This document shows, in pieces, positions 484-22,768 of a stretch of DNA of 64,000 bases. This DNA comes from Halorientalis salina (GTDB taxonomy: Archaea > Halobacteriota > Halobacteria > Halobacteriales > Haloarculaceae). Where the stretch lies: contig NZ_SOSC01000007.1 in the NCBI RefSeq assembly GCF_005049285.1, positions 1-64,000 of the forward strand. Reading direction: 5' to 3'. The notes beneath the pieces are model-generated. The model did no database searches, was not told the DNA's origin, and saw nothing but the letters and a program-made list of their open reading frames with translations. The first letter of the stretch is position 1; each line of letters begins with the position of its first letter. The position numbers and the translations under genes are program-made.

Positions 484-1188
484 ATGGCTTTGAATCGACG
501 TTATGTTCTTTCGTTGTTCGGAGGGTTCCTTACAGCAGGTTGTACTGGTCAGACTAATGATGGTTCTACATTGACTACGAAAGGTGAGAAGAAAAACAAA
601 TGTCAAACAGAACGACGAGACCCAACAGAACTTGCACTCCTAGAGTATAGACGTTCGTGGCGTGAGATACACAATATTCAGCTACAGATCGGCCAGATCA
701 ACTACTATGAAGACGGAACGGCAAGTTACGAGGGCGACGGTGATCTTGACAAACTTCGGTGTTTGTCTGACTGTGAGGAATCATTTTTACGAGCAGTAGA
801 GGAGTTTCGGGAGTTACAAAAACGGGCACAGAAACTCAAAGAGGATCTCACGAGTATACAAGATCGTCTTGACCAGTGTGATATAAAAAAACCAACATTG
901 TTCGAGACGGAAATTCAGACGGGCAAACAGGCAGCTACTGTCTACAAACAGGCGACAGGGAAGTTTACAGACAGTGCAAGACGCCATGCCCAGAATGACA
1001 ATCTTACGTCGTTTTCGGCAGGAGAATCTTATGAGAAAGGTATTAAATTACTTCGACAGTTCCACACTGTTGTTCCACGTAACGAAGACTCGGTGTTCAG
1101 TGGGGCTGAGAGTGAATTTGAGAATCCGATGGAAGACCCGTCTACTATTAGTACCAAGATCCGTGTCGATCTGACAACTGAGGAATAA
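484..1188 (+). CDS. Tat-type lipoprotein of unknown function
   Basis: The 234-aa product starts with a twin-arginine pair (R5-R6), a hydrophobic stretch and a lipobox ending LTAGC (Cys20). This is the usual haloarchaeal Tat lipoprotein signal, so the protein should be anchored outside the membrane by a lipid. The mature part is charged and largely helical (about 45-160), with several Cys residues (for example around 73-77), and resembles no family I know. Codon use is AT-richer than in the chromosomal genes, in keeping with the element. As it lies alone with its own promoter, it could be a surface or superinfection-exclusion type protein, but that is a guess. Confidence 0.75.
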   Translation: MALNRRYVLSLFGGFLTAGCTGQTNDGSTLTTKGEKKNKCQTERRDPTELALLEYRRSWREIHNIQLQIGQINYYEDGTASYEGDGDLDKLRCLSDCEESFLRAVEEFRELQKRAQKLKEDLTSIQDRLDQCDIKKPTLFETEIQTGKQAATVYKQATGKFTDSARRHAQNDNLTSFSAGESYEKGIKLLRQFHTVVPRNEDSVFSGAESEFENPMEDPSTISTKIRVDLTTEE

Positions 1189-1657: not shown

Positions 1658-1695
1658 CCCGATAAGTGGCGCTGTTGGGCGGTCGGGAGTCCATC

Positions 1696-2367
1696 ATGAG
1701 CAAGGAACCCGACGACGGCGAACGCGGCGGTAGTAGCATTGACTATCAGCGAAGTACCTTTGAAAACGGTGCCGCGCCGTGGAAGGACCCACAGGTACTG
1801 GGGACACTCTACCACGAACACGACCTTTCCCAGTCGGAGATAGCCGATGAACTTGGAACCAGTCAACCAAACATATCGAACTGGATGGACAAGTTCAACA
1901 TTGAGAGGGATTTGCCGATGCACCTACGGGACCGTTCAATTTCACGGAGTATCCGTGAAGATGGACGTGTCCAGTATCAGATTCCGAACGGGGACGGTGA
2001 GGTAGTCAGTATCTATGAGAGTCAGATCGTAGCACTCGGCTTTGCAACAGTCGAGACAGTCTTCCGAGATGATAGCGAGATCGATCACCTGCTACATTCG
2101 CCATTGAAACTCAACTTTGAGGAGAATTTGCTTGCACGACCAGAGACTGATCACCGAAAACGACACTCAATTGGTAAAGGTGCATTACCGAACACGAAAC
2201 TCTTGACATTGGTCTATGGCGAGCCAGATGGGACTGTTCCAGAATTTTTCTCACGACTTGACCAGTGGGGAAATTGGTGGGCCGATATAGAACGTCTCGA
2301 TGAGAGGGACGTAAGCCCCGTATTCAGTGCCGATGGGAACGTGTCTGAGGGAGAGACGGCAGACTGA
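1696..2367 (+). CDS. HTH DNA-binding protein of the rep operon
   Basis: The 223-aa product has a clear helix-turn-helix at about residues 38-60 (SQSEIADELGTSQPNISNWM), of the kind that precedes resolvase- or Xre-like binding domains. The rest is unrecognised. The ATG at 1696 is preferred to an upstream GTG at 1666 because the extension would overlap the structured leader and adds nothing recognisable. Its stop overlaps the rep start (TGATG at 2365-2369), so the two are translationally coupled. It probably regulates the operon or helps Rep recognise the origin. Confidence 0.65.
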   Translation: MSKEPDDGERGGSSIDYQRSTFENGAAPWKDPQVLGTLYHEHDLSQSEIADELGTSQPNISNWMDKFNIERDLPMHLRDRSISRSIREDGRVQYQIPNGDGEVVSIYESQIVALGFATVETVFRDDSEIDHLLHSPLKLNFEENLLARPETDHRKRHSIGKGALPNTKLLTLVYGEPDGTVPEFFSRLDQWGNWWADIERLDERDVSPVFSADGNVSEGETAD

Positions 2368-3965
2368 TGTCCGATAGTTGTTCCGTCGTTGGCGATACTG
2401 TCGAGACTGTCACCAGCGACGACGAAATGCGTGACCGAGGGCTGTCCATCGGCGGTGACCCCCACAGTGACGCCGTCATTCTTCGGTATCTCCGTCACGA
2501 TTGTTTGCTGTCGTACAACGACGCCGCAGAACGGATTGAGGCAGTCTTTGGGTATGCTTGCTCAAAGTCGATGATTCGACGTGGGATGGAGAAACACGGG
2601 ATTCGTGACCCACTCACTGATGGTCCGTTCGCTGACATTCTTCAGGCCGACGACGATACAGAACCAGCACAACCCCCCTCGTTTCTCTTGGAACGCTCAG
2701 AAGATAGTCCAGTCCACCCGTTCGACAGTGACGTTCACACTCTGGACACTGACGACGAACAGGGATGGGTGGTCGAGCGGAACGAAAAATCAGTGCCAAC
2801 ACCCCGTTTAGTTTCCAGTCCAGATTCCGATTCGTCCGTCACAACGACTGAGACACCAAATTCGGATTTTGAGAGCGGAACGGGAGTATATAAGTGGTCG
2901 ACAGATACCTCACCCAGTGCGTATCGGGTTGACCCGAGTAATCGAGAAGTTTCATTAGTTGCACCGCCCGATGCTGTCCAGTCAGACGATTATCCCGACC
3001 TCTACAAAGCCTGTGGGTGTGGTACCTGTGACGAGAAGCACTTTCTCGACGGCGACGGTGGGACGATCGACTGTTCTCAGCCTGTCCCTGTGACGATAGC
3101 AGGAGCGAGACGAATCTATCAGCACACCGAGGGAACGAACTACGCTGACGATGTCGATGGGAACGACGTACAGCGGGCGAGTCAGAAGTACGCTCGCTTG
3201 ATGAAAGCCGATAGTGCTGTCTTGGGCATGGACGGAACAGAACCACCCACAGAGCCGACAGACGCGACGTACATCAGCGGGAAGGCAGAGTACGACGATT
3301 GGACCACGGTACTCGTATCGCTACGTGTCTCCCCAACTGACGACGACGGACGGCTCGTGACACCGCTGGTTCTCGTCGATGATTGTTTGGACGCATGGCA
3401 GGAAGCCAGAACGAAGCTTCCGACAGACAAGTACGATCTATTCGTCCGATATTGGCTCGGTACAGGGACCGACGACTGGGGGTCCCCTCATATTCACTGC
3501 CACCTGTGGATTCCTGACCCTGACGACGACGTGACTCGTACTGACTTTCGCCCGACAGTCGAGACGTTCGTGCAAGCCTCTACATTTGCCCCCGTAGAGG
3601 CACATTTTGAGACTGGAAGCGGAAAGAGGGTCCAACTTACCGAGGGAGTGGTCCGTGTCGAAAATTCGCCGTTACTGGCAAACCCTGACCGTTTGGGCAG
3701 TCGTGTCACGTCCGACAATCCCTTCGGTGACGTTCTCGACACAGCACCAGAGCGGCTTACAGACGGCGACAGCGTCCAGTCACGCGGTGCGATCTACGTC
3801 GGCACCCAACATCTCGGCTTTGCGTTACTCGGTGCGGAGCGGCCAGCACACACTGAGGCCGCCGCGTTCTTCGAGGTTGGAACGATGGGGCGACACACTT
3901 CGCATGGTGCTGGTGGCTTCTACGAGTTTGCCGATCACTGTGACGCGCTCAACGAATCTGCATAG
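2367..3965 (+). CDS. HUH-type rolling-circle replication initiator (Rep)
   Basis: The 532-aa protein has an N-terminal HTH-like segment (about 35-80), an acidic linker, a Cys cluster (C216, C218, C221) and a C-terminal HUH endonuclease-like domain. The metal-binding motif is HIHCH at 375-379, preceded by a motif-I-like strand (TTVLVSLRVSP, 313-323). Tyr477 in AIYVGTQH is the best candidate nicking residue. HUH Reps nick the origin and stay covalently bound to the 5' end. Reps of haloarchaeal small plasmids and pleolipoviruses show a similar order of motifs. The gene is second in a coupled operon. The family is supported by motifs only. Confidence 0.7.
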   Translation: MSDSCSVVGDTVETVTSDDEMRDRGLSIGGDPHSDAVILRYLRHDCLLSYNDAAERIEAVFGYACSKSMIRRGMEKHGIRDPLTDGPFADILQADDDTEPAQPPSFLLERSEDSPVHPFDSDVHTLDTDDEQGWVVERNEKSVPTPRLVSSPDSDSSVTTTETPNSDFESGTGVYKWSTDTSPSAYRVDPSNREVSLVAPPDAVQSDDYPDLYKACGCGTCDEKHFLDGDGGTIDCSQPVPVTIAGARRIYQHTEGTNYADDVDGNDVQRASQKYARLMKADSAVLGMDGTEPPTEPTDATYISGKAEYDDWTTVLVSLRVSPTDDDGRLVTPLVLVDDCLDAWQEARTKLPTDKYDLFVRYWLGTGTDDWGSPHIHCHLWIPDPDDDVTRTDFRPTVETFVQASTFAPVEAHFETGSGKRVQLTEGVVRVENSPLLANPDRLGSRVTSDNPFGDVLDTAPERLTDGDSVQSRGAIYVGTQHLGFALLGAERPAHTEAAAFFEVGTMGRHTSHGAGGFYEFADHCDALNESA

Positions 3966-3986
3966 ACAGAAAGACAACTTACAGAC

Positions 3987-4430
3987 ATGGATGCAATGAA
4001 AGCAACCACGATACCCGACGACGACGACGGACAGAACGACGGACACCAAGATGAATCGACATTTCGACGAATCAAGCACCTCGGGATGCTGAAACCGCAG
4101 TATTTCGGGGACCTGATTCATCATGAGCAAACATCGATCGTGATCGAACATGGTGGAACCGAATTACTCTGCATCGAGGACCCCAGTACGATGGACGTGA
4201 GGCAGGCGAACATGGTGGACACAGGCAGCGGGAAAAAAGCGACATTCAGGTGTGACTTTGCCTTCCCCCACGTCGAACCCGATATAGACCGAGCCGACGA
4301 CAGAGAGGACACCAACGACGACGGCGGCGAACGTGAAGGCGACGAGAGCGACGACGACGTGACGAACAAGCATGGCTATGAAACCGACGGAAAGCTCACG
4401 TTTTCGCTCGGAGGTGAAACCGATGAGTGA
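3987..4430 (+). CDS. Acidic protein of the rep operon, unknown
   Basis: The 147-aa product begins and ends with very acidic, Asp-rich tails (about 1-25 and 98-147) around a small folded core (26-95). I recognise no family. It starts 21 nt after rep and its end overlaps the next start by 8 nt, so it belongs to the same transcript. Position between Rep and the hub-like protein suggests a structural or assembly partner, but nothing in the sequence proves it. Confidence 0.65.
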   Translation: MDAMKATTIPDDDDGQNDGHQDESTFRRIKHLGMLKPQYFGDLIHHEQTSIVIEHGGTELLCIEDPSTMDVRQANMVDTGSGKKATFRCDFAFPHVEPDIDRADDREDTNDDGGEREGDESDDDVTNKHGYETDGKLTFSLGGETDE

Positions 4431-4548
4431 TTACCAACCTGATAACATTCCTGACGATGCAATCATTCTCCAATGTGGTACCGTTGTCGGGGAAGACGGT
4501 GTTCTCGGCCACGTTGAGACCAACGATGTGGAGGTGTCGGAAGAATGA
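4423..4548 (+). CDS. 41-aa protein of the rep operon
   Basis: A short frame starts with ATGAGTGATTAC at 4423, inside the end of the previous gene, and ends at 4548, overlapping the next start by 4 nt (ATGA). The predicted product is acidic with a short beta-like core (AIILQCGTVVGEDGVLGHVE). The overlaps at both ends and the continued codon bias make it likely to be a real coupled gene despite its size. Confidence 0.6.
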   Translation: MSDYQPDNIPDDAIILQCGTVVGEDGVLGHVETNDVEVSEE

Positions 4549-5867
4549 CGGAATACGATCCTGACTGCCTCACCGATTCGAAGGTCTGGGTAAATAATCA
4601 CCGTCTCCCTGCTGGTGATGTAGACCTGTATATGCGGAAAGAGGGACCCCTTGACGTAACACGCTACGTCGAGGGGAAATTCGCGTCACCGTGGAACGAC
4701 GAAGACTTCACGAAGTATTTCAATCTCCTCCCAGGCAATGACCCACTCGTTTCAGAATCTCAAGATTTGTTTGATACGCTCCGTGTCGACGTGAGGGATA
4801 CGCAAGATACTGAAGATGCAAAGGAAGATGGCACGGTGGATGAAGAAGACGAAGGCAACATCTACCACACGCAATTTATGGGTGTGGTAACTGGTGTTGG
4901 AAGTAGTATCTCGAAGAACGAAAAGGAGTGGGCGTTCCGTGCCCGTGGTCCTGGGATGTTCGTTGATAAGATACCAGCCAGCAAAACATTCACAAATGGA
5001 TCGACACAGAACATCCTCCGTTACGTCAAACAACAAATTGAGGGAAAATACCCCTTCGAGATATCCGTTGACAACACAAACGAATCGTTCAATTTCGACA
5101 CGAACCCTGGGATAAACCTCGTCGAAGGAGCCATCAACCAACTTCCACTACTTGGGAACTACGAAATCCCTGGTGGCTCGAAGACATTCAAGAAGAATCA
5201 GGATACGCTGGAAGACGTGTTGACGTGGCTTGATGATAAGGTCGGTATCCGTCTCTGGTTCGAGCCGACACCGAATGGAGCCGTTCTTGTTGGGACTGAT
5301 ACTCCGACTGCAACTGAACACAACGCACACTACCTTGATGGTGAAACGTACATACTGAACAACGACGCACTTGTCGAGATCAATCCCGTCAACACCCTCA
5401 CTGTCAAATCCAAAGTGACTGATTCACTTGGTGTCGATGGTGTCTTCGAGATCAAGGAGATTAAAACAGGCAACGAGTACAACATTGCCAAGGTACGACA
5501 CCAACCACTGTACGAAAAGGCTGGACGACGGGAGTTTATCGCTGCACCTGATGCTCTGTCTGATGCTGATACCAAGAACGGCTTGGTCAACGAAGCCAAG
5601 TCCATGTTGAAAACGGAGATCGACGAAGCAACAGGTGGTGATATGAGTACATTGCTCAACGTACCAGTGAAACCATACGACACCATCGTTGCCCGTCCGA
5701 CGTGTGTCAAAAGTGATGGCAGTGACGTAGACCCAGTAACCTACGAAGTCTCCCGCGTCCACCACGAGATCAAAGCAGGCGGTGTCTCACGGACGAACCT
5801 CAACGTTGGACTGCACGCTGCATTGGGTGACATCGAGAAGGTTAGTGTCGAAACTGAAAAGGTATAG
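4545..5867 (+). CDS. Phage late-control gpD / baseplate-hub-like protein
   Basis: The 440-aa product looks like the gpD/VgrG/gp27 hub fold. An N-terminal beta domain describes an axis-like segment (about 1-85), then FMGVVTGVGSSIS (about 111-123), a segment with AFRARGPGMFVDKIP followed by KTFTNGSTQNILRYV, and a second domain TLEDVLTWLDDKVGIRLWF. In phages such hubs connect the tail tube to the baseplate. The match is by pattern, not by alignment, and no tube, sheath or other tail gene lies beside it, which is unexpected. It is the last gene of the coupled operon. Alternative: a virion or secreted protein that reuses this fold. Confidence 0.4.
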   Translation: MTEYDPDCLTDSKVWVNNHRLPAGDVDLYMRKEGPLDVTRYVEGKFASPWNDEDFTKYFNLLPGNDPLVSESQDLFDTLRVDVRDTQDTEDAKEDGTVDEEDEGNIYHTQFMGVVTGVGSSISKNEKEWAFRARGPGMFVDKIPASKTFTNGSTQNILRYVKQQIEGKYPFEISVDNTNESFNFDTNPGINLVEGAINQLPLLGNYEIPGGSKTFKKNQDTLEDVLTWLDDKVGIRLWFEPTPNGAVLVGTDTPTATEHNAHYLDGETYILNNDALVEINPVNTLTVKSKVTDSLGVDGVFEIKEIKTGNEYNIAKVRHQPLYEKAGRREFIAAPDALSDADTKNGLVNEAKSMLKTEIDEATGGDMSTLLNVPVKPYDTIVARPTCVKSDGSDVDPVTYEVSRVHHEIKAGGVSRTNLNVGLHAALGDIEKVSVETEKV

Positions 5868-6029: not shown

Positions 6030-6307
6030 GGGTAATCGTGTCACCCCGTTACCCGCCTGAAATCTGTGACAAAATCTCGACACTGTGATCCCCTCCCCCG
6101 TCATCTGGCGGTGGCCACCCATAGCCTAATCGTGACCACCATGGTCTGTATGGGGGAATTAGGGACACCTTCCTGTTCTATATCATAGGTGATAAATCCT
6201 ATCAGAACAATGGTGTTAAGTGGGTGGATTCCCTACGTAGATGTAACTCACTGCGTGTTTGCGCTTTGCGGAAAAGCGCCTGTGTTAGAGCACAGACGCA
6301 GTGGGTT
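6030..6307 (+). other. Chain of hairpins ending in a three-way junction
   Basis: The gap between 5868 and 6318 has no gene but strong structure. GGGTAA/TTACCC pairs at 6030-6035 and 6049-6054. CCCATA/TATGGG (6118-6123, 6149-6154) encloses GACCA/TGGTC (6134-6138, 6142-6146). GTTCT/AGAAC (6175-6179, 6204-6208) encloses ATAGG/CCTAT. A 12-bp stem with one G-U pair (6245-6256 with 6296-6307) encloses two perfect hairpins, GCGCTTT/AAAGCGC (6261-6267, 6273-6279) and CTGTG/CACAG (6280-6284, 6291-6295). The junction ends 11 nt before the next ATG. It may be a replication origin or a structured leader. Confidence 0.6.
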
Positions 6308-6318
6308 GGTAGAACCCA

Positions 6319-6743
6319 TGAGTAAATCGGATTCGGCGGAACTTGAGCGTTCCGTCACGGACGAGAGTACAGACGCGAAACAGAGAGTCACGGGAGACGC
6401 TACCCTCGATAAGCGGTGGGCGCGGTCGGAGTTTCAGAAAATTGCTGACGAGATCATCACTAACGCGCGCAGTCTCGATCCCAAGGCAGATGATCGAGTC
6501 GATGCCGAGAACTATTACGAGTTCCAAACTTCGCCAGCAGCATTCAGTTCGATATTGTTCGTGGCTAAGCGTTTATCAGTCCACCGAGAACGGGATGGTC
6601 GGACTCTGAATACGCTGCTTGAACACCCCGTCTTCTTCGAGGGACATGGACAGGGATTCGTCCAGATTCATGTTCGTGGAGACATCGAAACTCACGAAGT
6701 CGTGTCTGTCGACATTGTCTCGGGGTTAGAGACTGACAGATAG
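6319..6743 (+). CDS. Element protein of unknown function
   Basis: The 141-aa product starts at the ATG at 6319, directly after the three-way junction. A start at 6189 is rejected because it would read through that structure. The protein has an acidic N-terminus and a compact alpha/beta C-terminal part (about 75-138) with no motif I recognise. The structured DNA before it suggests control at the RNA level or a link with replication. Confidence 0.6.
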
Positions 6744-6984: not shown

Positions 6985-7265
6985 AGAGAGACTATGGCTC
7001 CCACTATTTTGACGCTTTTCTCGAACTGGATTCGGGGTTAATTAGCCTTGTTACTGTCTACAGAAAATAATTAAAGGGTTACAGGTTAACGGGGTCGACA
7101 TATTATCCTACTATCTAATCCATCTCACTTCTCTATTTCAGCAACCAAGACATAAACGGCTTGTATAACAAGTCGTGTATGCCTCTCTCGACTTTGCTCT
7201 CAAAACCCTGTTTTCCACCGTTTTAGTGAGACAGTTAGTTCGTTGTGAGTCGTCCACCAGAGTTA

Positions 7266-7293
7266 ATACACGGAAAGTTAATTATCCGTGTAT
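7266..7293. promoter_or_regulatory. Inverted repeat over the SNJ2-type integrase start
   Basis: ATACACGGA (7266-7274) and TCCGTGTAT (7285-7293) are perfect 9-bp arms with a 10-nt AT-rich spacer. The right arm runs into the ATG at 7292, so a bound protein would block transcription or translation. A smaller palindrome, CTTGTATAACAAG, lies upstream at 7160-7172. The remaining gap, 6985-7265, is AT-rich promoter-like sequence without a gene. Confidence 0.55.
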
Positions 7294-7891
7294 GCAAATA
7301 GATGACTCGGAGAACGAAACGAAGTGTTGGCTACAGTATCCGAATGAGATTGATCGACTGGCACAGGAAGTCCGCGAAGGTGACTGGACTCGACGTATCG
7401 CCGTCCTAATGATGGGGAAGGTTGGGCTTCGAGCGAGTGGTGTGTTGACGGCAAAACCCCAGGGGTTGACCTACAACGACGACGGGAAATACTGGCAACT
7501 CGAAGTCCAGGGGAAAAACACCAAGGGTGGAGAGAAAGCCACGAGGGATGCCTACGTTCCTGATGGAGTCAAACGCGAGTTAGAGAACTATGCCAAGGAA
7601 CGAGGTATTGCTCCCTCAGAGCCATACGTTGATGTCTCGGTCGACAGTGTACGCCGATGGGTCCGTGAAGCGTCACAGTCCATTGCAGAGGCTACGGGTA
7701 ACGAGCGGTGGGAACACGTTTCTTCACACGACCTACGGCGGTCGTGGGCCACTCATCACCTCGTAGAGGAGGACGTGAGTGTTCGGATCATGATGGAGAT
7801 CGGTGGATGGAGTTCCTACGCCAGTATCGAGCCGTATCTCGCCAAGCCGACGCCGTCAACCATCGGTGAGGAAATGAACGCACTTCACTAA
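7292..7891 (+). CDS. SNJ2-type tyrosine integrase
   Basis: The 199-aa protein is little more than a tyrosine-recombinase catalytic domain. The first Arg lies in GLRASGVLT, the HxxR box in HDLRRSWATHHL, then GGWSS, and the nucleophile is in SIEPYL. The short length and lack of an arm-binding domain fit the SNJ2-type integrases of haloarchaeal temperate pleolipoviruses and related elements. The ATG at 7292 is chosen because it precedes the conserved region and sits in the inverted repeat. An upstream ATG at 7175 would add an unlikely extension. It would catalyse integration and excision. Confidence 0.75.
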   Translation: MQIDDSENETKCWLQYPNEIDRLAQEVREGDWTRRIAVLMMGKVGLRASGVLTAKPQGLTYNDDGKYWQLEVQGKNTKGGEKATRDAYVPDGVKRELENYAKERGIAPSEPYVDVSVDSVRRWVREASQSIAEATGNERWEHVSSHDLRRSWATHHLVEEDVSVRIMMEIGGWSSYASIEPYLAKPTPSTIGEEMNALH

Positions 7892-8564: not shown

Positions 8565-8972
8565 ATGCCCGAGTGTACCCGTTGCGGTGCGTTCACTGAC
8601 ACCGAGCCGTCTGGTGAGTATCAATACTGCCAGGACTGCCAGGACCGCTTTGCCGAAATCGAACAGAGTGGTGTTGTCGTCGAACAGGACAAGGCTGGTG
8701 GTGACTATCACATCATCGTTACCGATGGTGATGCGTCACTCACTGGTGGGAGTGAACAGACACAGATAGAAGCACTGGCCCGAGGCAAATACATCATGGA
8801 CGAGTGTGGTGTTGACGGGCTGTTCAAGTACGCCGAGACAGGATCAATGTGGCTGCTTGAGGAATATCTACAATCCCATCCGAATATCCGCCAGGACGTT
8901 CACCAACGGCTCAGCCGTGTTCCTGAGAACACTGATGAGGGGTTTCTGAGCCGTATCAAGAACATCTTCTAA
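8565..8972 (+). CDS. Zinc-ribbon protein of the element
   Basis: The 135-aa product starts with a zinc-ribbon (CTRC at C4/C7, CQDC at C22/C25), followed by a beta-rich domain (about 35-60) and helices to the end. It probably binds nucleic acid, but I recognise no characterised family. A TATA-like AT-rich stretch lies about 30 nt upstream (near 8531-8537). Confidence 0.65.
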   Translation: MPECTRCGAFTDTEPSGEYQYCQDCQDRFAEIEQSGVVVEQDKAGGDYHIIVTDGDASLTGGSEQTQIEALARGKYIMDECGVDGLFKYAETGSMWLLEEYLQSHPNIRQDVHQRLSRVPENTDEGFLSRIKNIF

Positions 8973-9097
8973 TTGTAGTTTCAAAGGACTCGACACCAGT
9001 ATCTACGGTTGAAACACGCTTTCAGGTGCAACTCGGCATCTAACTGATCAACGGCCCTCCTCACAGACTATTCATATTTTATTGAGATGTGTTTTCG

Positions 9098-10036
9098 TTA
9101 CTCATTATCCCTAAATTCCTCATATCTGTTAATCAGGAAGTAAAGATAAGCGCCAACTTGGTGAATTAGTAATGTTGCATACGCTCTATCGTGATACACG
9201 TGTCGCTGCTTTCGATCATCACTCACCTTGGCAACCATTTTATCCAAAGAATCGAGTAGGCTTCCTAACTCAGGCGCAGTAACACCATGTGCATCATAGA
9301 CGCCGTGCTCTTTCAGCAAATCAAGATACTCTGAGTGAACCAGTTCTCGATTGTCGGTCCAACCTTCTTCATCGATACAAATAGTCTTCAATAACTCCTC
9401 AATACTATTGTAGAGTTTCTTTGGGATTAGTTCATCAAAATCGCCCGCCAAATATCGGTCAAAAGCGGCATTATACCCCTTTAGGGCACCACGCCACGGT
9501 TGATCTTCGGAGATAGCCTGTAATTTCTCGTCTATCTCACGCATACCATCTGACTCAAGTAGCGTAAATTGAATGACGCCGCCCTCACCAACGGACTCTA
9601 TGTCCCAAAGAATTCCCTCAGTAATTAGCACATCTCGGATATTCCCGATCTTTGCTTCCATACTCTGTATGGGTGCCTGTTTCTCTACTGGGACTCCCAT
9701 ACTCCATTCACCCCGTTCTTGAAGACGGTCTCTATGCTCGTATTTTACAAGCAATTCTATATATGTGAGAACATGAAGCGTTTTACCTTCCATTATGAAC
9801 TTATCATGGTGAACTTCGTCAATACCTCCTGATGAAAAGCGTTTGATATAATCGGAGAGGGGAGATTTGCCAACCTTCTTCATTAAATACTTCATGATAG
9901 AATCGCGGCTTCTGGGTGCCATCTCTCGCGATATCACTGAAAGCCGCTCGCGTGCAGGTTCTGTCAACTCTTCATGGACACGTGACTTAGGTTCCCGCTC
10001 GCGATCAATTAGGGGAGTATATCCGTCGTTTCTCAT
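9098..10036 (-). CDS. Abi/HEPN-like candidate defence protein
   Basis: The 312-aa product has a basic N-terminal half (about 1-165) and a helical C-terminal half. Around residues 185-310 the pattern YNAAFDRYLAGDFDELIPKK, SIEELLKTI and HDRAYATLLIHQVGAYLYFL resembles the C-terminal domain of AbiJ-type abortive-infection and HEPN-related proteins. In those families the helical domain often carries an RNase. I see no clean RxxxxH motif, so activity is uncertain. AT-rich codons match the element. It ends about 65 nt before the larger integrase gene on the same strand, the usual place for cargo. Confidence 0.4.
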   Translation of the reverse strand: MRNDGYTPLIDREREPKSRVHEELTEPARERLSVISREMAPRSRDSIMKYLMKKVGKSPLSDYIKRFSSGGIDEVHHDKFIMEGKTLHVLTYIELLVKYEHRDRLQERGEWSMGVPVEKQAPIQSMEAKIGNIRDVLITEGILWDIESVGEGGVIQFTLLESDGMREIDEKLQAISEDQPWRGALKGYNAAFDRYLAGDFDELIPKKLYNSIEELLKTICIDEEGWTDNRELVHSEYLDLLKEHGVYDAHGVTAPELGSLLDSLDKMVAKVSDDRKQRHVYHDRAYATLLIHQVGAYLYFLINRYEEFRDNE

Positions 10037-10102: not shown

Positions 10103-11125
10103 TTAGATTCCGTCGATATACTTCCGTCTCGTCTCTGCCTTCTCGTGTTCAGTCCGTTGGTCGTAATGATGATCCAGAACGTCTTTACTCACGTCACAAC
10201 GGTCACTGACTGCTGTATCGGGAACGTCCTTGAGCAGGTGATGGGTGATACTGCCTCGGCGTACAGGATGTGGTGAGACGGACGACGGACATTTACAAGC
10301 GTCAGCATCGACAGTTGCCTCACAGTCGTCAGGATCACGGTTATGTGGGCAACTTTCCCACTGACATGGACGAGTAACACGGTAGACGGCCCGTTTGATG
10401 GCAGTTCCCCCAATCCTACCGTATCTTGTCGTGAACAGAGGTTTTCGTCCGTAGTCGTCGGTTTTCTCACGACGGTGGATGTCGATGTAGTCTTTCAGTA
10501 CGTCGACAACGTGATCCCCAAGAGCAATCACCCGCTCGCCACGGGTTCCGTTCTTGAGGGGGGTATCTGTCTCAGGACGGTGGTTCGTTTCCAGCGTTTT
10601 GTTTCGTGGGTGGAAATCTTCAAGATCAAACGAGCGAACCGTTCCCTTCCGAATGCCTGTGTGCCACATTACTTCGAGCAGAGCATGGGTTCGACTGGCG
10701 TACTCGTACTTCCGTAGCCACTGAAGCATCTGCTCGGCATGATCCGCTTTCAGCATCTCATCACGGGCTTCCTCACTTCGATCCCGTGAGGGGAGGATCA
10801 CTGTCTCGTGTAGCCCGTCAGGGACGCCGTCAATGCTCTCACACCACTGGAGAAACATACGGAGTGATGAGAGGTTGATCGACAACGTCGTTCGTGCAAC
10901 GTCCTTCTGCCGCCACAGGCGGTACTCGTGGAGCTTCCGCCCCGTTAATTCGTTGAGGTTGTCTACTCCCTCTTGTTCACACCATTCTCTGAACCGAGTT
11001 AGGTGGAGTGTGATGTTCTCCAGTGTTTTGTCCGCGACTTCTGTCTCGCGGTGGTTGAGGTACAGTTCGATCGCAGTCTCAGGTTCGATGGCTTGCAGTT
11101 CGGACATAATTGCTCCGAACCGCAT
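10103..11125 (-). CDS. XerC/D-type tyrosine integrase with Cys-rich insert
   Basis: The 340-aa protein has an N-terminal SAM-like core-binding domain (about 10-110) and a catalytic domain. Motifs are HTGIRKGTVR with the first Arg, HPVRRGSITHHL with the HxxR box, and DHHYDQRT with the likely Tyr nucleophile. Between the catalytic boxes lies a Cys-rich insert (about 253-280: CQWESC, DDCEA, CKC) that could bind zinc. A second ATG at 11107 is an alternative start. Sitting at the element edge with a candidate core site 73 bp upstream, it probably integrates the element. Confidence 0.8.
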   Translation of the reverse strand: MRFGAIMSELQAIEPETAIELYLNHRETEVADKTLENITLHLTRFREWCEQEGVDNLNELTGRKLHEYRLWRQKDVARTTLSINLSSLRMFLQWCESIDGVPDGLHETVILPSRDRSEEARDEMLKADHAEQMLQWLRKYEYASRTHALLEVMWHTGIRKGTVRSFDLEDFHPRNKTLETNHRPETDTPLKNGTRGERVIALGDHVVDVLKDYIDIHRREKTDDYGRKPLFTTRYGRIGGTAIKRAVYRVTRPCQWESCPHNRDPDDCEATVDADACKCPSSVSPHPVRRGSITHHLLKDVPDTAVSDRCDVSKDVLDHHYDQRTEHEKAETRRKYIDGI

Positions 11126-11191
11126 GACAGTCGGGGTGTTCCCGTCCAGTACGGCAACTGGGTCGTTCGGGTTTCTCCGAAAGCCGAATCG

Positions 11192-11314: not shown

Positions 11315-11350
11315 AAAACTGGAGAATCAGTCGCGCGTGATGCCGTCCGT

Positions 11351-11482
11351 TCAGAGCCCGTGGCCGGCCACGGGCGTCTTCTTCTCGATCTCGGTGGCGT
11401 GACAGACGTCGCAGGTGTACTCGTTCAGCTTCGTCGTCTCGTCGTTCAGCGCCATCCGCGAGCCACAACGGGGGCAATACAT
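11351..11482 (-). CDS. Small zinc-finger protein
   Basis: The 43-aa product has two Cys pairs (CPRC at C3/C6 and CDVC at C25/C28) and belongs to the abundant haloarchaeal class of tiny zinc-finger proteins. The ATG at 11482 directly precedes the first Cys pair, so the longer upstream frame is not used. Role unknown; proteins of this class are often regulatory. Confidence 0.75.
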   Translation of the reverse strand: MYCPRCGSRMALNDETTKLNEYTCDVCHATEIEKKTPVAGHGL

Positions 11483-21433: not shown

Positions 21434-22768
21434 ATGCAAACAATTAAGCTGCTATCGGCCTGTAATCAGGGCGCGGCGATGGAATACACACACCGCTACT
21501 GCGCCCACCCGCCAAGTGAGGTAGCGGCGGAACTCGAACGGCATATCGACATCCATCGTCAAGCCTACAACTACACCCGCTACGAGTACGAAGATCTGCC
21601 CGATGACACAGACACTATCGGCAGTGCGTACAAACACCATAAGCGTCTCAAACCGTGGAAAGATGAGTTCCCGGTGTTCGGTGAGGTTCACTCGAAAGCC
21701 CTCCAGAGGACAGTTACACGGTTCTACGATAACCTCAGCAACCTGAAAGACAGGAAAGACGCCGGGTACAACGTCGGGTGGTTGAAGTGGAAGGCACCGC
21801 GAGAGTTTCAGAGTATGACGTATTCGCAGTCTGGCTTCGAACTCAAAAACACGAGTGGCCAGACCGCGACACTGTGGCTCTCCAAAATCGGTGACATTCC
21901 ACTCACGTATCACCGCGACATACCCGATGAAGCAGTAATTAAAGAAGTCACGGTCAAACACGAACCCACCGGAGAATGGTTCGTCTCCTTTGCACTTGAC
22001 GTGGATGAGGAACACCTCCCCGAGAAACAGCCGGTCGATGAGTTAGAAGCGGTGGATTGTGTGGGTGTTGACCTCGGCATCCTCAACTACATTCATACGA
22101 GTGACGGCCTCTCAGTCGAGAAGTTGGAAATAGAAGCCGAGTACGAACGCCTACGGAAAGCCCAGCGAACCTTGTCACGGCGAGAACAGGGCAGGGAGAA
22201 CTGGGAGAAACAACGAAAACGGGTTGCGTCCATCAAGCGTCGTATCCGGCGAAAAGTCCTTGATTTCCAGCATAAACTTTCGACGTGGCTGGTCACTGAG
22301 TACGACGCGGTGTTCGTTGAGGATTTGGACGTGAAGCGGATGCTGGAAGGCAGTCAGAATGCTCAGAACAAGCAGGATGCAGCGTGGCGACAATTCATCC
22401 AACTGTTAGAGTACAAAGCCGACCTGCATGGGTGTCACGTCCGGCAGGTCAACCCAGAAAACACCACCAAGATGTGTAGCGAGTGCGGTGTGAAAACGGA
22501 CAAACCGCTGTGGGTGCGCGAACACAGTTGTCCGTCGTGTGGGTTTGAACTTGACCGTGACTGGAACGCCGCACTCAACGTCTTAGAACGTGGATTGCGA
22601 AAGTTAGGGCTGGGACAGTCCGAAGTACAACGCCTGCTGGAGACTGGAGCCGCTGTGGAGCAGACTCACCGGGAGTCTGTTTCTGCAAGTTCCGTCGTTG
22701 AAGCAGGAAGTCCGACGCGAGAGCAAGGAAGCCCCGACCTCAAGGAAGCGGCGGTAGCCGCTGAGTAG
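21434..22768 (+). CDS. tnpB: TnpB RNA-guided nuclease of the IS element
   Basis: The 444-aa protein has an N-terminal helical region, a RuvC-like nuclease with the catalytic triad VGVDLGI (Asp near 218), FVEDLDV (Glu near 294) and DRDWNAALN (Asp near 376), and a zinc finger CSECG/CPSCG in between. TnpB proteins are RNA-guided endonucleases (omega-RNA from the element's right end) that help the element persist. The frame is complete. Another ATG at 21479 could be the start. The 3' end of the gene overlaps the right-end hairpin, where the guide RNA is expected. Confidence 0.9.
   Translation: MQTIKLLSACNQGAAMEYTHRYCAHPPSEVAAELERHIDIHRQAYNYTRYEYEDLPDDTDTIGSAYKHHKRLKPWKDEFPVFGEVHSKALQRTVTRFYDNLSNLKDRKDAGYNVGWLKWKAPREFQSMTYSQSGFELKNTSGQTATLWLSKIGDIPLTYHRDIPDEAVIKEVTVKHEPTGEWFVSFALDVDEEHLPEKQPVDELEAVDCVGVDLGILNYIHTSDGLSVEKLEIEAEYERLRKAQRTLSRREQGRENWEKQRKRVASIKRRIRRKVLDFQHKLSTWLVTEYDAVFVEDLDVKRMLEGSQNAQNKQDAAWRQFIQLLEYKADLHGCHVRQVNPENTTKMCSECGVKTDKPLWVREHSCPSCGFELDRDWNAALNVLERGLRKLGLGQSEVQRLLETGAAVEQTHRESVSASSVVEAGSPTREQGSPDLKEAAVAAE

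Follow-up and report, generated by a model that had tools for sequence, protein, structure and literature searches.

The window analysed here is the whole 64-kb stretch at the start of C21, a contig of 162.9 kb from a haloarchaeal genome (G000; 3.66 Mb, 23 contigs). It contains at its left end an integrated mobile element with a gene for a tail baseplate hub. With a probability of roughly 0.5, this is a rolling-circle-replicating, satellite-like element that uses its own hub to form chimeric tails with an incoming tailed virus. The element has an integrase and attachment (att) ends, a Rep protein that is of plasmid type by its sequence, a helix-turn-helix (HTH)-HNH gene of the tailed-virus type, one intact hub gene, and no other detectable virion gene. 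The occurrence of related elements across many haloarchaea points to a family of parasites that act on other viruses by rebuilding or sabotaging their tails.

An operon encoding a Rep protein and a predicted baseplate hub

The hub is encoded by the last of five genes that form an operon on the forward strand. Their products are an HTH-HNH protein, Rep, an acidic protein, a small protein and the hub, with lengths of 233, 532, 147, 41 and 440 residues, respectively (Table 1). Neighbouring genes overlap by 1–8 bases, for example by one base between the HTH-HNH and rep genes and by four bases between the genes of the 41-residue protein and the hub; the sole exception is a space of 21 bases between rep and the gene of the 147-residue protein. 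A strong ribosome-binding site (GGAGGTG) precedes the hub gene. A preliminary description of this DNA had stated that the genes for Rep, the acidic protein, the 41-residue protein and a hub-like protein overlap or abut in one operon. The coordinates of the open reading frames (ORFs) agree with this arrangement, and the operon starts one gene earlier than described, with the HTH-HNH gene at position 1666.

No model in Pfam, PHROG or NCBIfam recognises the 440-residue protein. It matches, however, the protein annotated as baseplate hub in Haloarcula tailed virus 2 (HATV-2; tblastn 6e-9, phmmer 2e-16). An AlphaFold2 model based on 12 homologues had a mean confidence (pLDDT) of 75.4 and a predicted template modelling score of 0.75. 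Foldseek assigned this model to hubs of contractile systems (E 6e-13), and VIA-align superimposed 307 residues on Mu gp44 (1wru) with a Z-score of 21.7 and a root-mean-square deviation of 3.4 Å. Z-scores were 17–20 for VgrG and the hubs of extracellular contractile injection systems (eCIS) and 18.6 for the tail chain 9h4p_BD of HFTV1. The structural alignment takes in residues 9–429 and thus the whole protein, which makes it a complete hub. Sequence kinship and predicted fold therefore agree in identifying a full-length baseplate hub, and the earlier assignment of this protein as gpD- or hub-like was borne out by both the sequence search and the structure prediction.

Residues 374–381 of Rep have the sequence PHIHCHLW, a motif pattern that occurred in none of 100 shuffled sequences. 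In an alignment with homologous Reps of the DUF1424/PF07232 superfamily, which is treated as an HUH family (PMC13107129), PHIHCH (374) and Y477 stand at the positions of the conserved motifs. The score of the window Rep for PF07232 (DUF1424, putative rep) is 15.4 bits and thus below the Pfam cut-off of 23 bits, whereas the Reps of the related loci L024, L052 and L028 exceed it with 24.5, 26.5 and 60.3 bits. The L028 Rep matches Reps of small haloarchaeal plasmids of 1.7–2.5 kb; the window Rep, used as a query, gave no matches among phages or plasmids. Its structure model (pLDDT 41.9) is too poor for a fold comparison. Judged by the shared motif and tyrosine positions, the protein is by sequence an HUH rolling-circle Rep, as had been proposed, and of plasmid type.

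The first protein of the operon combines an HTH with an HNH-like C-terminal half, for which PHROG HNH families were matched. It also matches HNH endonucleases of haloarchaeal tailed viruses (tblastn 7e-5), and its gene is conserved in L028, L024 and L052. Asp and Glu make up 26% of the 147-residue protein, which is related to the product of L028:8304-8753 (blastp 2e-18). Homologues of the 41-residue protein are encoded directly 5' of the hub in L022, L023, L024 and L052; this protein would be a partner of the hub.

The right end of the element is marked by an integrase gene and by attR, and an identical attL is found on contig C18 of the same genome. C18 ends 332 bp beyond attL, which adjoins a host gene for a 350-residue membrane protein. 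Because this exact copy lies near the end of C18, the element crosses the junction between C18 and C21 and has a length of at least 11.7 kb. The contig break explains why there is no left att site inside the window. Relatives of the integrase are encoded on pHK2 (39% identity) and on other haloarchaeal plasmids, and an integrase occupies the same position in L024, L025, L028, L029 and L052.

Related elements in other haloarchaea

A profile search for the hub was positive in 13 genomes out of a sample of 391 from the class and in 9 of 146 genomes of the family. Twelve loci contain the hub as their only tail gene: the window locus, one locus each in G334, G126, G117, G010, G058, G274, G235, G392 and G396, and two loci in G302. 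The complete elements among them are 7.6–15.6 kb long. Direct att repeats of 23–101 bp delimit eleven of the twelve (window, 26 bp; G334, 52 bp; G126, 34 bp; L024 of G117, 30 bp; G010, 30 bp; L030 of G302, 79 bp; G058, 50 bp; G274, 30 bp; G235, 23 bp; G392, 72 bp; G396, 101 bp); at L027, the second locus of G302, a repeat was looked for and not found. Unrelated 3-kb stretches shared chance repeats of at most 16 bp. Among the integration targets are tRNA-Ser, tRNA-Ile and tRNA-Met as well as the beginning of a dinB-type gene. The thirteenth element, that of G041 (14.4 kb, 62-bp att), encodes a tape measure protein, a 180-residue protein, the hub and a gpV-like (spike) protein in virus order. 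Full myovirus proviruses were found at five loci (L031, L033, L054, L055 and L056) in four genomes.

The combination of a hub with a rolling-circle Rep had been regarded as unusual in the preliminary description. It does recur: the G392 element (L052) has the order HTH-HNH, Rep, 44-residue protein and hub, and its hub is 46% identical to that of the window. Many elements have the hub together with an integrase and, in some cases, a Rep. Exact-peptide-based scans of IMG/VR with hub queries found no relatives, and the plasmid collection contained no DNA match to the whole element. The only hub match in that collection (E 0.4), opposite a gene for a trehalose-phosphatase, was rejected as a chance hit.

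In a maximum-likelihood tree, the hubs of the window, G392, G334, G126, G396 and G117 form one clade (support 100/99), and those of G041, G010 and G058 stand beside it (88/95). The hubs of HATV-2 and L031 are located elsewhere, and L030 represents one independent case of a hub-only element, whose hub shares 51% identity with the hub of a full provirus. Silent sites of the hub genes are saturated (pS 0.72–0.80) and pN at replacement sites is only about 0.35, which means that the hub is maintained by purifying selection.

Further observations concern individual relatives. In G156, an integrated element of 5.2 kb (L068:8008-13286) has the same integrase and Rep families and no hub. Such Reps thus also occur without a hub, which makes the hub an addition to a plasmid chassis. 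In G334, the rep gene (L022:7943-9991) is interrupted by a transposase-like gene (8585-9421), and the hub is intact; this copy is therefore probably unable to replicate itself. The G058 element encodes an Mrr-type restriction nuclease (L028:8883-9620), a close relative of which (44%) is found in the full provirus L056 (3409-4260). On contig C1 of G375, L031 and L033 are two identical HATV-2-like provirus tail regions at a distance of 71.8 kb, possibly due to a tandem provirus or an assembly effect.

Virion genes of the elements and their carriers

The 21 virion genes of HATV-2 and all genes of four proviruses were compared with every ORF of ten elements; in this set, the window element is incomplete on the left and the relatives are complete. 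The hub was present in all ten elements, and the tape measure and gpV only in that of G041. No head, portal, terminase, sheath, tube or wedge gene was found. Scans of 98 element proteins with PHROG and Pfam, for which the ORFs of the relatives had been picked by length and acidity, so that some non-acidic genes were perhaps missed, identified integrases, HNH proteins, Reps, a single tape measure and a single Mrr nuclease; neither a head nor a packaging family was among the matches. Going by its gene content, the window element is no independent virus, since genes for head, portal, terminase, sheath and tube are absent from it. Its classification as a provirus of the Caudoviricetes was rejected, as no capsid, portal, terminase, tube or sheath gene occurs in the ten elements.

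An undescribed virus-like or conjugative-like system had been considered previously. The virus-like part of this proposal is supported insofar as it means an element linked to tailed viruses. The conjugative part does not, because the 98 proteins contain no relaxase or type IV secretion family. No Pfam or PHROG match to pleolipovirus spike or matrix membrane proteins was seen among the element proteins, for which no search with a dedicated profile was made. The better classification is that of a satellite of tailed viruses.

A profile of the HATV-2-like sheath, which recovered all the provirus genomes from which it was built, found nothing in the 12 element-carrying genomes. As the carriers thus have no such sheath elsewhere, the tail would need an outside source. 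The hub is unlikely to be used on its own. A sheath detectable with Pfam is present in one of the twelve carriers, G396, which also has a hub element. This contractile-sheath protein (L084, C4:54515-54952; PF04984, 81 bits, 580-residue frame) is not HATV-2-like and possibly belongs to an eCIS.

The proposed satellite and its alternatives

According to the satellite reading, infection by a tailed virus (HATV-2-like or another myovirus) would cause the element to excise and to replicate by the rolling-circle mechanism. Its hub would then be expressed and, as the assembly of baseplate and tail begins, take the place of that of the helper. The resulting chimeric tails would favour, or be compatible with, particles that carry the element. 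We infer by analogy that the hub may act on the tails of an infecting virus in this way. The G041 module supports a role in chimeric tails, and this element, with tape measure and gpV around the hub, could represent a fuller version of the same strategy.

Several points weigh against a satellite. Neither a helper virus nor induction, particles or transfer have been observed, and on the left the window element runs into an assembly gap of unknown size. In contrast to most satellites that have been studied well, the elements yielded neither a packaging signal nor a small terminase or capsid-size gene. The hubs are just 20–30% identical to known virus hubs, so that no specific helper can be named, and the distances between hubs and between integrases correlate weakly (r 0.31, p 0.06).

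The main rival, which we consider unlikely on balance, is tail poisoning: the hub of an integrative plasmid would be a dominant-negative subunit that derails tail assembly and protects the host, and the element would not be transferred in particles. Defence systems carried by satellites are known to target tail assembly, for example Tai in phage-inducible chromosomal islands (PICIs; PMC11364771) and Rta in PLE11, a PICI-like element (PLE; PMC12987554). A decoy would also account for the hub being alone in most elements, for carriers without an HATV-2-like tail of their own that could be poisoned, and for the Mrr nuclease in one element. On the other hand, the predicted hub fold is complete and not truncated, which mildly favours incorporation into tails over a decoy, and the tape measure and spike kept in virus order in G041 would be needless for this purpose.

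It is less probable still that the element is a plain integrative plasmid whose captured hub was domesticated for another use, for example at the tip of a contractile injection machine belonging to the host, or in a surface or secreted role. The chassis is indeed plasmid-like, with an integrase akin to that of pHK2 and others and, in a relative, a Rep akin to those of 1.7–2.5-kb plasmids. Moreover, eCIS and VgrG proteins have the same fold, and the carrier G396 possesses the contractile-sheath protein. However, such a sheath is found in this one of the twelve carriers only, and the hub gene moves with a mobile element, its closest relatives being hubs of tailed viruses. Very improbable is a small autonomous virus with unrecognised, non-homologous capsid genes and a tail-hub-derived protein in its own virion. 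Several element genes belong to no known family, but the elements can be as small as 7.6 kb and share little beyond integrase, HTH, Rep and hub, so that there is no common candidate for a capsid gene. A decayed tailed provirus with the hub as its last structural gene is strongly disfavoured: although the hubs descend from those of tailed viruses, and that of L030 resembles the hub of a full provirus (51%), intact hubs occur in many elements with precise att sites, the order HTH-HNH, Rep, small protein and hub is kept in two divergent elements, Rep and integrase are of plasmid type, and the separate clade of the window-type hubs together with purifying selection argues against decay.

Relation to known systems

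The satellite reading of the elements is the leading interpretation, albeit unproven, and satellite-encoded hubs are already known from the PLEs of Vibrio cholerae. PLE11 encodes a tape measure protein, a tail assembly chaperone and the hub BhuB, which replace those of the phage and form chimeric tails with proteins of the helper ICP1; these tails are needed for transfer (PMC12987554). Like PLEs, the hub elements are integrated, lack a full set of virion genes and encode their own baseplate hub. In contrast to PLEs, they are archaeal, use an HUH Rep, usually have the hub without tape measure and chaperone, and are known here from their genes alone.

PICIs, P4-like satellites and capsid-forming PICIs (cf-PICIs) have about 10–15 kb with an integrase, a regulator and a replication gene. 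The hub elements resemble them in size, in these three genes and in their proposed dependence on the structure of a tailed virus; they differ in having a tail hub instead of recognisable packaging or capsid-redirecting genes. Zhou et al. (2025; Nat Microbiol 10:2673, doi 10.1038/s41564-025-02149-7), going by their title, reportedly deal with haloarchaeal virus satellites, to which the hub elements could belong or with which they could overlap. With pHK2-like and other small rolling-circle plasmids of haloarchaea they share the integrase family and the PF07232 Rep superfamily, to which the Rep of the alphapleolipovirus HHPV1 also belongs. We know of no tail hub in such plasmids or in HHPV1-type viruses. 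HATV-2 (Soleiviridae, Eilatmyovirus) has in gp25 a homologue of the 440-residue hub, but gp25 is located in a full myovirus tail module, between the tape-measure module and gpV.

The literature searched describes no case in which the chassis of a rolling-circle plasmid is combined with a single tail hub specific to satellites. Satellite-made chimeric tails were reported in 2026 for one bacterial family, the PLEs (PMC12987554). The elements suggest that archaea, too, have this strategy, here combined with an unrelated replication chassis and pared down to the hub as the only tail gene. We tentatively propose, at somewhat less than even odds, that they constitute a widespread and old family of archaeal satellites on rolling-circle plasmids, with a satellite-specific hub for chimeric tails as hallmark, and that they are a second, independent invention of tail reprogramming that is mostly reduced to one tail gene. 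They would offer a simple system in which to ask if a single subunit, acting when tail assembly begins, suffices to redirect or block a virus.

Boundaries and remaining genes of the element

Table 1. Features of the window element, with window positions and supporting matches.
Feature	Position	Strand	Remarks
234-residue lipobox/secreted protein within the element	484–1188	+	L053:11225-11899, blastp 2e-21, 28%
HTH and HNH-endonuclease-like protein, first operon gene	1666–2367	+	alternative ATG 1696; phrog_7545 HNH 3e-15
Rolling-circle (HUH) Rep, DUF1424/PF07232 superfamily	2367–3965	+	PHIHCH at 3486–3503; candidate catalytic Tyr477 at 3795–3797
147-residue acidic protein adjoining Rep	3987–4430	+	homologues in L028 and L024, likewise close to Rep
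41-residue protein directly upstream of hub	4423–4548	+	conserved core hydrophobic-x-CGxxV...G(x)IG(R)
Predicted baseplate hub (gpD/Mu gp44/T4 gp27/VgrG-N fold), 440 residues, full length	4545–5867	+	sequence and fold matches
Small protein, real start probably internal	6189–6743	+	related to L022:13395-13778 and L024:7970-8389, also in hub elements
Second tyrosine recombinase (catalytic domain)	7175–7891	+	PF00589 1e-11; L030:13789-14391, 46%, in a hub element
312-residue protein, no known function	9098–10036	-	52% to counterpart in G334 hub element
XerC/D-like site-specific integrase, haloarchaeal plasmid/integrative type, right element end	10103–11125	-	PHROG integrase 2e-26
20-bp sequence, inverted copy near left element end	11116–11135	-	C18:290924-290943
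attR, 26 bp, GTGATGCCGTCCGTTCAGAGCCCGTG	11337–11362	+	identical attL at C18:290791-290816

A homologue of the lipobox protein is encoded immediately 3' of the hub in the G396 element. The 312-residue protein belongs to no family in Pfam, PHROG or PADLOC. The 20-bp sequence forms a perfect inverted repeat close to both element ends and overlaps the start of the integrase gene; its copies may be arm sites of the integrase or a regulatory switch that operates on circularisation. Elsewhere in the window, a TnpB-like protein of the IS200/IS605 family (444 residues, judged by eye) is encoded at 21434–22768, with no partner transposase seen nearby. Between 6189 and 6300, the stretch before the start codon of the small protein (...CGKAP...GRSGL.QPM) looks conserved, also upstream of the SWIM-domain genes of L024, L028 and L029. 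It would precede two different gene families and may be shared promoter or regulatory DNA.

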